In this document: piece after piece, positions 19,208-26,871 of the stretch
Layout: each line of letters opens with the position of its first letter
Numbering within the stretch: the first letter of the stretch is position 1
Virus record (IMG/VR): IMGVR_UViG_3300044699_000016
Location: 1 to 41,940 of that record
Length of the DNA stretch: 41,940 nucleotides
Source of the DNA: a virus
Direction: 5' to 3' (one strand)
Notes under the pieces: generated by a model
The model's database searches: none
Told to the model about the DNA's origin: nothing
Seen by the model: only the letters and a program-made list of their open reading frames with translations
Translations under genes and position numbers: made by a program

Positions 19208-19604
19208 GGTACTTCAGCTTGCGGATGGCGGCGGCAACAGCAACACAATTCTGTTCAGGTCCAAGGTGCTGCGTGTTCTTGTTCGACCATGCCATTCGTT
19301 CCGCCACCTGTGCGCAGCGTTCGATGGTGTGGTTTACTAGCGGTGTATCTTCTGCCAGCACAGCATCAATGGCCTTGGTGAGCGCAACGCCGGTATCACA
19401 TTCATCCGGCCCCGCCTCAAACGTGCCTACCTGCGCGGCGGCGGTGAGGGCGGCTTCCGCAGCAAGCAGACAAGCACAAGTCTGCTCTCTTTCGGACAGT
19501 CGCGGGTCATTACAAAATACGCGCTGATTATTGATTGTAAGGCCACAGACGTTGACCTCCCTCACAGCTTTCGCTGCCGCCTCGATCTGCGCTTGCGTTA
19601 TCAT
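19155..19604 (-). CDS. Hypothetical phage protein
   Basis: 149 residues, MITQAQIEAAAKAVREVNVC, with AAEAALTAAAQVGTFEAG, and ERCAQVAERMAWSNKNTQHL, then AAAIRKLKYHEPG. The framework 'IEAAAKA ... AAEAALTAA ... AAAIRKLK' is a familiar one for small alphaproteobacterial phage proteins of unknown role. Several Cys in the first half (NVCGL, VFCND, QTCACLL) are notable. The 3' end overlaps the helix-turn-helix gene by 53 bases. Confidence 0.6.
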   Translation of the reverse strand: MITQAQIEAAAKAVREVNVCGLTINNQRVFCNDPRLSEREQTCACLLAAEAALTAAAQVGTFEAGPDECDTGVALTKAIDAVLAEDTPLVNHTIERCAQVAERMAWSNKNTQHLGPEQNCVAVAAAIRKLKYHEPGADRPSREDVEQRL

Positions 19605-21495: not shown

Positions 21496-21975
21496 CTACA
21501 GGGGGCTGATGTCCGGTAGCCGTTCCATCCGTGGGATGCCTGTAGGTTTTACACCCGTACTGCCTGTGCTGGCAATGGCGCGGTGGACCTCGCAGTAGGT
21601 TCCCTCGGCGTAGCAGCCGCAGGAGCCGCCGGTCACCGGCCAGCGGCAGTCGTTGACTTCTAAGTCAACCAGCTTGACCGGCGTGGTTCCCGGCAGCGGG
21701 TTCCAGATGTCGGTCGGCATGATCTTGGGCGGCTGAACTTTCGGGCGCATGACGTACCCCTTTGGTCTGACGGCGGGCGCGTGCTTGTGCGGCAGCCATT
21801 TCAAGGGCTTCCAGCCCTTCGGTTTTGACAGGCCCAATCTGAATACGCGGCCAACGACGGCATTCTTGGAGCGCCCGACCATGTTGGCGATCACGCTGGC
21901 AGACTTGCGTCCCCACCAGCGGCGCAATACCCCGTCCTGATCGCTGGACCAGCTTGCGCTTTTATTGGCTGGCAC
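21496..21975 (-). CDS. gcrA: GcrA-family cell-cycle regulator homologue
   Basis: 159 residues. The N-terminal helix-turn-helix has the family pattern: W(S)-x6-LRRWWGRKSASVIA, then SKNAVVGRVFRLGLS (residues about 10-50). The middle is basic and proline-rich. The C-terminal domain keeps CRWPV, then CGCY, then TYCEVH, the Cys/His set of cellular GcrA. In alphaproteobacteria GcrA binds RNA polymerase sigma-70 and methylated GANTC promoters to switch on cell-cycle genes. A phage copy could redirect host transcription or activate phage promoters. It ends the leftward regulatory operon after the XRE gene (14-base overlap) and is followed by a strong terminator. Confidence 0.85.
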   Translation of the reverse strand: MPANKSASWSSDQDGVLRRWWGRKSASVIANMVGRSKNAVVGRVFRLGLSKPKGWKPLKWLPHKHAPAVRPKGYVMRPKVQPPKIMPTDIWNPLPGTTPVKLVDLEVNDCRWPVTGGSCGCYAEGTYCEVHRAIASTGSTGVKPTGIPRMERLPDISPL

Positions 21976-22225
21976 GCGCGGTATCTTGCAGCCGGTCCAG
22001 CGTGGCGAAGGTCCGCATCAGGCGTGGCGCGACCTGTCGGATTGATAGCCGTGTTTGCTTGGTTATTCGTTCAGCCAGTTCGATTGATGGGTTCTTTACC
22101 CCGTTCTCGATGTCCGACAGGTGTGGCGCGGAGGCCTTCACCCGGCGGCCAAGTTCAGCCAGAGACATTTGCCCGTTCTGGAACCGCCATCGCGTCAGCG
22201 GGTGTATTGTCTTACGTTTGTTCAT
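21962..22225 (-). CDS. XRE-family helix-turn-helix regulator
   Basis: 87 residues from ATG 22225 (AGGAG 7 bases upstream; an ATG two codons earlier is too close). HTH of Cro/C1 type: MSLAELGRRVKASAPHLSDI then ENGVKNPSIELAERITKQTR (residues about 20-60), with the classic L-S-D-I-E-N-G recognition region. A short basic C-tail and no peptidase domain, so any release from DNA would not be by RecA-type cleavage. This is the prime candidate to bind the TTAGC-N5-GCTAA palindromes. It follows the HD gene in the same leftward operon across a terminator and precedes gcrA. Confidence 0.78.
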   Translation of the reverse strand: MNKRKTIHPLTRWRFQNGQMSLAELGRRVKASAPHLSDIENGVKNPSIELAERITKQTRLSIRQVAPRLMRTFATLDRLQDTARASQ

Positions 22226-22257
22226 TACCATACTCCTGTGGCGAAGATCGTTAGCAG

Positions 22258-22284
22258 AAAAACCCCCTGCAATCAAGCAGGGGG
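22258..22284 (-). terminator. Rho-independent terminator after HD gene
   Basis: On the minus strand: CCCCCTGC (22284-22277), loop TTGATT, GCAGGGGG (22270-22263), then TTTTT. A perfect 8-bp GC-rich stem. It separates the HD gene from the XRE/gcrA pair, so expression of those two would need read-through, antitermination or another promoter. Confidence 0.85.
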
Positions 22285-22314: not shown

Positions 22315-22857
22315 CTAGGGCTGTCCCGGCTGATCCTTGGCGTAGTCGCTGGCGACCTTCCAGAGCGTCGGGTTGCCAGCCTTGAGAACCTCCAGCAGCG
22401 CCCGCTTCTCGGCGAGGTAGACCTTGGCGAAGTCCGGGTCGTACACCCGGATCGAGGTGGTGTTGTCGATTAGGTCGGCCAGCTTGATGGTCATGCCTTC
22501 AGGCGAGGCGCAGGCGAGGTGCTCGCGGTCCATCGCCGCCCGCAGTCCTCGGTTCAGGTCCGGGTGTCGCATGGAGGGGTTGGTCACCTCGTAGACCAGC
22601 CGCGCCACCCGCTTGCCGAAGGCCTTGACCAGTTCGTCGTAGGTCGTGTCGGTGTCCTCGATGGTGTCGTGCAGCAGCGCGGCGGCGATCATTTCGGCGT
22701 CCATCGTGACCCCGGCGACCAGATCGGCCACCGCCTCGACGTGCGTCCAGTAGGGCACCCCGGTGTACTTGCGCAGATGGTGCCGGTGCTTCTCGCGCGC
22801 GAAAGCCTTGGCCCGCTCGACCAGCGGGCTGCCTCGCAGCATTGTGTTCAGGTTCAT
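22315..22857 (-). CDS. HD-domain protein, small alarmone hydrolase-like
   Basis: 180 residues from ATG 22857 (GTG at 22863 is the alternative). The motifs match the RelA/SpoT and MESH1 hydrolase HD fold in order: HHLRKYTGVPYWTHVEAVAD (HD1, His), AALLHDTIEDTDTTYDELVK (HDxxED metal and catalytic residues), FGKRVARLVYEVTNPS, and GMTIKLADLIDNTTSI (K-L-A-D..D-N). Known enzymes of this size remove pyrophosphate from (p)ppGpp or (p)ppApp. So the phage may destroy host stringent-response signals or neutralise a toxic synthetase. Start overlaps the stop of the upstream membrane gene (ATGA). Substrate is inferred, not shown. Confidence 0.8.
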   Translation of the reverse strand: MNLNTMLRGSPLVERAKAFAREKHRHHLRKYTGVPYWTHVEAVADLVAGVTMDAEMIAAALLHDTIEDTDTTYDELVKAFGKRVARLVYEVTNPSMRHPDLNRGLRAAMDREHLACASPEGMTIKLADLIDNTTSIRVYDPDFAKVYLAEKRALLEVLKAGNPTLWKVASDYAKDQPGQP

Positions 22858-23056
22858 TTCCACAACCTCAATCTATACCCTGCGAAGAAAATTAGCAAGG
22901 GGCAAAAGACCAGTAACGGATATTCGACCGCCAGCCAGAGCGCGGCGGCCAGTGCCAGCACCAGCAGCCAGCCCGCCGCCACCGCTGCGGCCACGAACAG
23001 GGGCAGCGCCAGAAGCTGCCCGTCCACCACGCCAGTGTTAGCTTTCTGTCTCGCAT
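22854..23056 (-). CDS. Small membrane protein (one probable frameshift)
   Basis: ATG 23056 with GGAGGG 5 bases upstream. Reads MRDRKLTLAWWTGSFW; adding one G near 23010 continues RLPLFVAAAVAAGWLLVLAL, AAALWLAVEYPLLVFCPLLI and FFAGYRLRLWK, ending in TGA at 22854 that overlaps the HD start. Without the correction, the first frame stops early in an improbable Trp/Cys-rich sequence. About 67 residues with two to three hydrophobic helices. Function unknown; translational coupling to the HD gene is clear. Confidence 0.5.
22872..22906 (-). promoter_or_regulatory. Putative internal promoter with TTAGC-type site
   Basis: Minus strand: TTGCTA (22898-22893), a 15-base spacer and TATAGA (22877-22872). 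The plus-strand sequence TTAGCAAGGGGCAAA at 22892-22906 is a one-mismatch copy of the 15-bp palindrome found at other phage promoters and covers the -35 box. It lies inside the membrane gene, about 15 bases upstream of the HD start. Confidence 0.5.
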
Positions 23057-23661: not shown

Positions 23662-23698
23662 AATATGCACAGGCTAATGATATTAGCAAGGGGCTAAT
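23662..23698 (-). promoter_or_regulatory. Leftward early promoter overlapping operator palindrome
   Basis: Minus strand: TTGCTA (23689-23684), 16-base spacer ending TTAGCCTGTG, then CATATT (23667-23662). The 15-bp palindrome TTAGCAAGGGGCTAA (23683-23697) covers the -35 box and extends to a 17-bp perfect palindrome with its flanking A and T. The -10-proximal TTAGCCTGTG is identical at the DUF932 promoter. Confidence 0.7.
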
Positions 23699-24147: not shown

Positions 24148-24211
24148 CCGGCGACTAGATGCGGGGTCGCTTCAAAGGCCCCGCCCCGCTGGAGAGGGGC
24201 ACCTCCAGAGG

Positions 24212-24241
24212 CCGGGGCCGCGAGGCCCCGGTCTGCTTTTT
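24212..24241 (+). terminator. Rho-independent terminator
   Basis: CCGGGGCC (24212-24219), loop GCGA, GGCCCCGG (24224-24231), then TCTGCTTTTT. A perfect 8-bp stem 65 bases after the stop of the conserved gene. Confidence 0.85.
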
Positions 24242-24263: not shown

Positions 24264-24285
24264 TTGACGTTAGCCCTGTGCTAAT
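24264..24285 (+). promoter_or_regulatory. Promoter/operator of PEP-CTERM gene
   Basis: The palindrome TTAGCCCTGTGCTAA (24270-24284) has within it an extended -10 element TGT-GCTAAT (24277-24285). TTGACG at 24264-24269 is too close to be a standard -35. The gene start is 35 bases downstream. Binding of the palindrome by a repressor would cover the core promoter. Confidence 0.55.
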
Positions 24286-24319
24286 GCACCAATACCATCT
24301 TACCAAAGAAGGAGAGCCT

Positions 24320-25105
24320 ATGCGGAACCTAACCGGAATGCTGGCGGGCATTGCTTTGCTCGCCAGTGGCGGAGTGGGGCAGGCCGTCACGCTCGGCGGT
24401 CAGAACTGGACCTCTACCGGCACCGTGCTGACACTGTCTCAAACAGTGCCGACCGGCAACCAGCCGCTGAACATTCAGTGCATCATCTGCGGCGACAACC
24501 AGCCGCAGCAACAGGCGAACTTCGGCTACACCGACTTCCACAACACGGGCGCGATGAACGACATTCTGTTCTTCTCGACCAACGTGGCGGGAGGCGGCAA
24601 TCCCGGAGCAGACACGGTCGGGCTTGGTTATGACGGCTCGTTCCTGCGCGACTACATCGCCGCGCACGGCAGCGTCAACCTGACCTTTCAGGTCGGCATC
24701 GACGTGAACGACGCCGGTAAGACACCGCAGGTTCTGGAGAGTTTCTATCTGCTGAACCTGACGCAGCACAAGGTCTTGGCATCGTTCCAAGGGCCAGCGC
24801 CTATCGGCTCGCAGAACAACGGGACCGGCTTTCCAGACTTCATCTTGGAAGGCTTCGACCTCAACTTCGGCACAGACTTCGTCCTCGGCGACCAGTTGAT
24901 CTTTTTCGCCCGCATCAGCAACGCGAGCGATGGGCCGGACAGCTTTTTCCTGATCCCAAATCAGGAAATCGTCACCCCGCTGCCCGCAGCCGTATGGCTG
25001 TTCGGCGGCGGCCTCGGCGTGCTTGCAATGCTCTCGCGAAGGCGTAAACGTGAAACGCATCTGGCTTGGCCGAAATACGCAGTTGCCCCGGCATCCAGTC
25101 CCTAG
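24320..25105 (+). CDS. Secreted protein with VPLPA/PEP-CTERM sorting signal
   Basis: 261 residues from ATG 24320 (AAGGAGAG 6 bases upstream). N-terminus MRNLTGMLAGIALLASGGVG is a signal peptide with probable cleavage after QA. The body is beta-rich (TLGGQNWTSTGTVLTL, FYLLNLTQHKVLASFQGP) with one short Cys-x-x-Cys (CIICG). Near the C-terminus comes TPLPAAVWLFGGGLGVLAML followed by SRRRKR: the VPLPA-CTERM tripartite tag (motif, membrane helix, Arg cluster) recognised by exosortase. The tag normally ends the protein; here about 17 more residues follow, perhaps from a one-base shift near the Arg cluster, where stops lie in another frame. It probably modifies the surface of the infected cell. Flanked by its own promoter and terminators, like a moron gene. 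Confidence 0.8.
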   Translation: MRNLTGMLAGIALLASGGVGQAVTLGGQNWTSTGTVLTLSQTVPTGNQPLNIQCIICGDNQPQQQANFGYTDFHNTGAMNDILFFSTNVAGGGNPGADTVGLGYDGSFLRDYIAAHGSVNLTFQVGIDVNDAGKTPQVLESFYLLNLTQHKVLASFQGPAPIGSQNNGTGFPDFILEGFDLNFGTDFVLGDQLIFFARISNASDGPDSFFLIPNQEIVTPLPAAVWLFGGGLGVLAMLSRRRKRETHLAWPKYAVAPASSP

Positions 25106-25139
25106 GTGTTCCCGAACTCCCAAATGCCGGAAGCAAGAA

Positions 25140-25166
25140 CCCCCCGGAGCAGGATGCTCCGGGGGG
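25140..25166. terminator. 12-bp GC-rich hairpin between convergent genes
   Basis: CCCCCCGGAGCA (25140-25151) pairs perfectly with TGCTCCGGGGGG (25155-25166), loop GGA. On the minus strand it is followed by TTCTTGCTT, so it can terminate the leftward gene at 25204-25584; for the rightward PEP-CTERM gene it would act as a weaker stop. Confidence 0.75.
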
Positions 25167-25203
25167 CGCTGTCGGCAGGTCCGGGTAGGAAGCCAGCCGC
25201 CAG

Positions 25204-25584
25204 CTAGACCTTGACGTAGGTGCCGCGCCCGACCAGTTCGACCTTGTGCTGCGAGCGTAGCACTGACAGCACCGAGGACACCCCGGTCGGCAGCCGTCCA
25301 CTCTCCACCAGCAGCTTCCCGAACTCGGGGCATTTGTAGTGGTACTGCTTGCCCCGCTCCATCATCCCCAGCACCTTCGGGGCGAGTTCCTGCATCCACG
25401 GCTGGGCAGCGACCCGGCTTTTCCACTCCGAAGGCCCGCCCCGCCGAGGCCCGTGCTTGCCGTTGACCGGAATGCCGGGGGTCAGTTCCTCGATGCGCAG
25501 GTTTGTCACCTCGTTCGCCAGCACGCTCGTGACCGTGTTGAGTTGGTCGTGCCGGATTTCGCAGGTCAGTCGATATTTTCGCAT
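25204..25584 (-). CDS. Hypothetical protein, possible C-terminal winged-helix
   Basis: 126 residues: MRKYRLTCEIRHDQLNTVTS, VLANEVTNLRIEELTPG, a basic middle (GKHGPRRGGPSEWKSRVAAQ) and a C-terminus with EFGKLLVESGRLPTGVSSVL then HKVELVGRGTYVKV. The C-terminal helix-helix-strand-strand pattern is compatible with a winged helix, but no family is recognised. It lies downstream of the DUF932 gene in the same direction and ends in the hairpin at 25140-25166. Confidence 0.62.
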   Translation of the reverse strand: MRKYRLTCEIRHDQLNTVTSVLANEVTNLRIEELTPGIPVNGKHGPRRGGPSEWKSRVAAQPWMQELAPKVLGMMERGKQYHYKCPEFGKLLVESGRLPTGVSSVLSVLRSQHKVELVGRGTYVKV

Positions 25585-26835: not shown

Positions 26836-26871
26836 ATTATACACAGGCTAAAAACCTTTGCAAGGGGCTTA
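26836..26871 (-). promoter_or_regulatory. Leftward promoter of DUF932 gene
   Basis: Minus strand: TTGCAA (26863-26858), 16-base spacer ending TTAGCCTGTG, then a perfect TATAAT (26841-26836). The site TTTGCAAGGGGCTTA (26857-26871) is a two-mismatch copy of the phage palindrome over the -35. It aligns without gaps to the promoter at 23662-23697. The leader to the ATG is about 90 bases. Confidence 0.75.

Follow-up and report, generated by a model that had tools for sequence, protein, structure and literature searches.

The window, as we call the whole stretch of DNA analysed here, is a 41,940-base virus contig (IMG/VR record IMGVR_UViG_3300044699_000016) that encodes a major head protein, head-tail adaptor, terminase, tail fibre, and internal virion proteins, as well as ERF and a RecE-like exonuclease. 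The plus-strand gene at 24320-25105 encodes a 261-residue protein consisting of a signal peptide, an acidic beta-rich body, the motif TPLPA, a membrane helix, the cluster RRRKR, and 17 further residues. The longest frame opens at GTG 24278, but we placed the start at ATG 24320 (stop, 25103-25105) because AGGAG lies at 24310-24314 and relatives point to the same start. The features of the locus are as follows.

24209-24234, plus strand: upstream terminator-like hairpin that ends the 23728-24147 gene (11 pairs, 9 of them G-C, then GCTTTTTATC)
24270-24284, plus strand: operator-like palindrome TTAGC-N5-GCTAA, exact; exact also at 23683 and 30438
24310-24314, plus strand: ribosome-binding site AGGAG, from the sequence
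24320-25105, plus strand: exosortase-type surface protein gene, 261 residues (TIGR03370, 27.2 bits; 215 viral relatives)
24320-24385, plus strand: predicted signal peptide, residues 1-22, with cleavage expected behind GQA (N-terminal hydrophobic peak; family members)
24386-24973, plus strand: predicted exported beta-rich body (invariants C54-x-I-C57-G58, NGTG 167-170, and DG..SFF 204-210; AlphaFold2; dN/dS 0.06; pI)
24974-24988, plus strand: sorting motif TPLPA, residues 219-223 (sequence, TIGR03370)
24989-25036, plus strand: C-terminal membrane helix AVWLFGGGLGVLAMLS (hydropathy)
25037-25051, plus strand: basic cluster RRRKR (sequence)
25052-25102, plus strand: C-terminal extension, the first 9 residues largely common to relative L002, the last 8 read through past that relative's stop
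25139-25167, minus strand: downstream terminator-like hairpin whose orientation best suits gene 25204-25584, which converges on it from the minus strand

A preliminary description of the locus had proposed this protein architecture, and profile searches, hydropathy, and AlphaFold2 modelling all bore it out. The VPLPA-CTERM profile TIGR03370 matched residues 220-243 at 27.2 bits, above the NCBI curated cut-off of 25.35, in keeping with the sorting signal that had been suggested. VPLPA-CTERM is a tag cut by XrtD, the VPLPA-specific exosortase. Among 17-residue hydropathy peaks, the two strongest fell at residues 221-239, the C-terminal helix, and at residues 4-23, the N-terminal signal peptide; the latter, assigned by hydropathy rather than by a dedicated predictor, has a Lys/Arg start and an A-x-A-like site, with a similar signal peptide in the other 62 aligned family members. 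Modelled alone, the body gave a confident beta-rich domain (pLDDT 86.9, pTM 0.88); its pI is about 4. Neither Pfam nor PHROGs holds a family for the protein, a PDB sequence search returned no match, and fold searches of the PDB and BFVD gave no match at E<=0.001, whether the complete model or just the body was used. The protein resembles VPLPA-CTERM/PEP-CTERM substrates (TIGR03370, TIGR02595, NF035944) in its signal peptide, variable exported body, short proline-containing motif, helix, and basic cluster; it differs in being carried by a phage, in having one body with several tail classes across its family, and in a body that lies outside Pfam and PHROGs.

About 17 residues behind the arginine cluster had been considered abnormal and a possible sequencing shift. 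Comparison with L002 led us to reject a frameshift. The tail of L002 reads RRRKRPTHLAWPKY and is followed directly by TGA, whereas the window reads RRRKRETHLAWPKY and continues for 8 residues (AVAPASSP), and the flanking DNA of the two differs where these extra codons run. Judged by this comparison, the odd residues are natural: they consist of an extension that L002 has in part, followed by residues read through where the similarity stops.

The palindrome TTAGC-N5-GCTAA that lies upstream of the gene at 24270 occurs at 17 sites in the window when up to 2 mismatches are allowed, compared to 6.6 expected, and none of 100 shuffles reached as many. Copies stand at the intergenic sites 23683, 23720, 24270, 26837-26871, and 30438. 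It is a probable phage operator, perhaps for the HTH protein encoded at 21962-22276, and since it also occurs at other intergenic places of the early-looking region, the phage probably controls the surface-protein gene together with other genes. The gene had been described as an independent unit with its own promoter and operator and with terminators on both sides. The operator and both hairpins are present in the window, but the gene had no standard sigma-70 promoter in the scan, and the flanking hairpins are a local feature. Across the family, hairpins lie within 150 bp of the gene upstream in 1 of 61 cases and downstream in 3 of 61 (random 150-bp windows, 0.6%), so a terminator-flanked cassette is unsupported as a family rule.

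The capsid of the carrying phage is closest to those of Pelagibacter HTVC010P-type phages (57-59%), and its terminase to that of phage C72C1 (48%); the terminase match to Sinorhizobium phage phiM5 is 42%. A phage-borne GcrA cell-cycle regulator and an HD-domain phosphohydrolase are encoded at 21496-21975 and 22315-22863, respectively, and the GcrA gene, taken with the known distribution of GcrA, suggests an alphaproteobacterial host. No phage integrase was found in the window, and 4 of 30 records had one above cut-off; lysogeny is thus not needed for carrying the surface-protein gene. Elsewhere in the window, 156 bp at 19300-19455, within an open reading frame of 149 residues, are 91.7% identical in DNA to the otherwise distant phage L008/L039, a match that is due to recent exchange.

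A scan of IMG/VR with the single sequence recovered 34 relatives (46-92% identity), and a scan with the alignment recovered 215 on viral contigs, belonging to numerous phages of soil and fresh water that are unrelated to one another. Motifs taken from that alignment found no relative in 84,980 bacterial and archaeal genomes, and four queries against cultured phages, as well as plasmids, gave no homologue. The three closest relatives have bodies 95-96% identical to that of the window protein, and their DNA similarity to the window is confined to about 24317-25078, the open reading frame itself. Neighbours vary: among the loci compared, the surface-protein family was represented 58 times, and the most frequent family around it 14 times. 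In one phage group the gene lies directly behind TerL and ahead of the head and portal genes. Because similarity to unrelated phages starts and stops with the reading frame, the comparison indicates a mobile phage accessory gene, and its neighbours change from one phage to the next. The earlier label of a moron gene fits an extra gene set among core phage genes. By contrast, it is exceedingly improbable that a bacterial PEP-CTERM gene was picked up through transduction or an assembly error and does nothing for the phage. Distant bacterial homologues do exist, which speaks for such an origin, but 215 viral relatives stand against none in the cellular scan, in several genomes the immediate neighbour is TerL, a head protein, or a portal gene, and the family has been under long-term purifying selection. 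This refutes a stray host gene for the family, and misassembly or host contamination of the window is ruled out by the same viral and cellular counts and the phage-gene neighbours. The preliminary description had named a missing profile match or misassembled host DNA as grounds for doubting a sorting-signal protein on a phage, and neither was found.

The body of the protein is under strong purifying selection, since dN/dS was 0.057-0.063 between the window and its three closest relatives and 0.007-0.136 over 17 close pairs. This bears on the idea that the protein is a decoy substrate, whose tail would saturate the host exosortase, reduce display of the host's matrix proteins, and so ease adsorption or spread. 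A competitor would need a tail matched to host-type tails, as is seen, yet it would have no need of a conserved body, and strict conservation (dN/dS 0.01-0.14, 32 invariant positions in the alignment of 63 members) argues against a mere decoy, which we regard as quite improbable.

The tails behave differently from the bodies. Classified by motif, the 63 distinct members comprised 34 VPGP-x-x-GAGLPG, 20 VPLPA-like, and 9 PEP-like tails, with a few borderline assignments such as L046 and L100. At E<=0.05, NCBIfam models matched 18 of the 63 as VPLPA-CTERM, 5 as PEPxxWA-CTERM (best 8.7e-11), and 6 as PEP-CTERM; L050 (VPLPA) and L066 and L086 (PEPxxWA and PEP) scored above the curated cut-offs, and no curated family model covers the VPGP class. 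On a maximum-likelihood tree of the bodies alone, 14 tail-class changes were needed, compared to a possible minimum of 2 and a shuffled mean of 25.1, and even when only the starred branches are counted, the three classes require no fewer than 8, 8, and 5 gains or losses. The sorting tail has been exchanged repeatedly across the family, apparently to suit the exosortase of whichever host a phage infects. Haft 2011 (PMC3237569) described protein families whose tails are of the LPXTG, PEP-CTERM, or GlyGly-CTERM kind in different bacteria. These likewise combine one family with differing sorting tails; here, however, phages carry the family, and unrelated proteins encoded by the same phage have tails of the same class.

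That agreement was seen in six phages (L038, L044, L065, L072, L063, and L089) in which another protein, with a different body, also has a signal peptide and a sorting tail (for example, L038:10850-11551 and L044:10786-11448), immediately downstream of the surface-protein gene in 4 of the 6. The tail class of the second protein was that of the first in all six (3 VPGP, 3 VPLPA), and permuting tails with the observed class counts gave p = 0.05 (1/20) for this small sample of 6 phages. When each second tail was ranked against 59 distinct core tails, that of its own phage came first in three cases, second in one, and 25th and 15th in the others. The second protein of L038 matched VPLPA-CTERM at 28.3 bits. 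It forms one sequence cluster with that of L044, and those of L065 and L072 have a common GGGTSGYGGN segment (by eye); in both pairs the tail classes differ.

Bradyrhizobium-like MAGs from soil and fresh water also have the VPGP tail, each on several exported proteins that otherwise differ: 9 in G003 and 6 in G001. None of the five VPGP-bearing genomes had an exosortase by PF09721. The broader TIGR04178 (cut-off 23) gave an exosortase-family match in G003 (28.5 bits) and G002 (26.2) and none above cut-off in G001, G004, or G005. The G003 gene lies on the same contig as two VPGP proteins, and its product carries, by eye, the exosortase pattern C..R..H (CSSL, NVTR, HNQW); no named NCBIfam exosortase fits it. 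Homologues were present in 16 of 392 genomes of its bacterial family, the query genome included, and in G840 and G825 they adjoin a small exported protein ending APGPVAGASLP... or APLPIMGAGLP.... In Bradyrhizobium relatives, this unnamed protein (L264:1329-2821; L265:1168-1437 and onward; L254:113-1096; L267:2360-3316) is positive for TIGR04178, negative for PF09721, and adjoins exported proteins of small size whose tails are VPGP/GAGLP-like. For rhombosortase, too, an enzyme has been described side by side with its dedicated substrate (PMC3237569); rhombosortase itself was rejected as the enzyme for the VPGP tail, with no genome over cut-off. The exosortase-family protein and its VPGP/GAGLP-tailed neighbour are a probable undescribed enzyme-substrate pair, and this arrangement provides good but unproven evidence that the VPGP tail is an exosortase signal.

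These results also weigh on a simpler reading, in which the protein is exported and its tail serves as a mere inner-membrane anchor that needs no exosortase. Any hydrophobic helix with an arginine cluster anchors a protein, and the enzyme that would process the VPGP class is unproven. Anchoring would not, however, give three motif classes or matched tails within a phage, and VPGP-like tails adjoin an exosortase-family gene. We consider a plain anchor improbable, though a little less so than a decoy.

A profile search of 289 alphaproteobacterial genomes identified three distant chromosomal homologues, L121, L122, and L123, all with VPLPA or PEP tails. When a tail-free body profile was searched against 1804 sequences, L121 (9.7e-13) and L122 (5.7e-8) showed clear body homology and L123 weak homology (2.7e-4); among 398 genomes of the phylum there was no further body homologue at E<=1e-5. 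In body and sorting tail these proteins are like the phage family, and two of the three genomes, those of L121 and L122, encode an exosortase. They differ in being much diverged, in the position of L121 on a 2.8-Mb contig, and in that no phage genes occur in the short loci read. The exosortase in the genome of L121, the closest chromosomal homologue, is XrtD (455.7 bits, cut-off 400). Tail switching, matched tails within a phage, and a chromosomal homologue in an XrtD genome together strongly imply that the surface protein uses the host exosortase, as had been suggested at the outset.

We propose that during infection the signal peptide would direct export of the phage protein through the membrane, where the C-terminal helix would hold it while the host exosortase, here of the XrtD type, recognises TPLPA. 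The protein would then end up at the outer surface or in the exopolysaccharide layer, either set free there or attached. Its body would perform a conserved job, whereas its tail would be an interchangeable address, replaced by phages so as to suit the host's sorting enzyme. Such sorting and display on the infected cell is quite likely, given what can be read from the sequences (the architecture, the family match, a close family confined to phages, purifying selection on the body, tail switching, and matched tails).

The purpose of display is a more tentative matter. The surface of the infected cell may be altered or masked so that other phages, or released progeny, fail to adsorb; this is possible, at somewhat less than even chances. 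By analogy with receptor-blocking phage envelope proteins, Cor of phi80/N15 among them (PMC11436027), we rank such masking or alteration of the surface first among the uses considered and a role in the matrix or in aggregation second. To our knowledge, Cor is no exosortase substrate; in the role proposed here only, it would resemble the window protein in that both are envelope proteins made by a phage and active on the outside of the cell it infects. In a matrix or aggregation role, the protein would alter the exopolysaccharide layer or clump cells for the phage's benefit rather than block adsorption. PEP-CTERM proteins such as PepA act in floc formation and bound exopolysaccharide (PMC9850573), and lectins and carbohydrate-binding modules were among the top fold matches, although all were sub-threshold and are not counted as evidence. 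PepA (NF033554) has a similar tail, but its body is unrelated by inspection, and the best family-member matches to NF033554 reached 20-22 bits against a full-length threshold of 80. We rejected kinship with PepA, as these weak scores are tail-driven and true PepA bodies, inspected by eye, do not reproduce them. With a body that is not PepA and no fold match at E 0.001, we consider a matrix or aggregation role rather unlikely, though well ahead of a decoy or a plain anchor.

On balance, we lean towards a dedicated family of surface proteins in phages that infect exosortase-bearing bacteria of soil and fresh water. Their tails would be swapped according to the exosortase of the host at hand, which means that the class of a tail may serve as a host tag, and VPGP-x-x-GAGLPG, the commonest tail, may mark the substrates of an unnamed Bradyrhizobium-like exosortase family. 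Our literature search found no paper describing a phage-encoded PEP-CTERM-type protein. If correct, this would be an unreported viral use of host exosortase sorting to display phage proteins; it would also give the exosortase field a natural series of tail-swap experiments, supply a sequence-based clue to which hosts uncultured phages infect, and point to an unnamed exosortase and substrate pair.

Two small families were also seen near the surface-protein gene. A small exported protein (GTATFSDNRIYLRDKNGEHYATI...DGTRTMYD), a possible partner, is encoded shortly downstream in 8 phages (L012:1660-2052, L016:3268-3552, L018:3470-3805, L058, L061, L068, L079, and L100), and a small membrane protein is encoded nearby in 7 (L016:2913-3191, L043:4232-4432, L049:2374-2634, L054, L060, L062, and L065).
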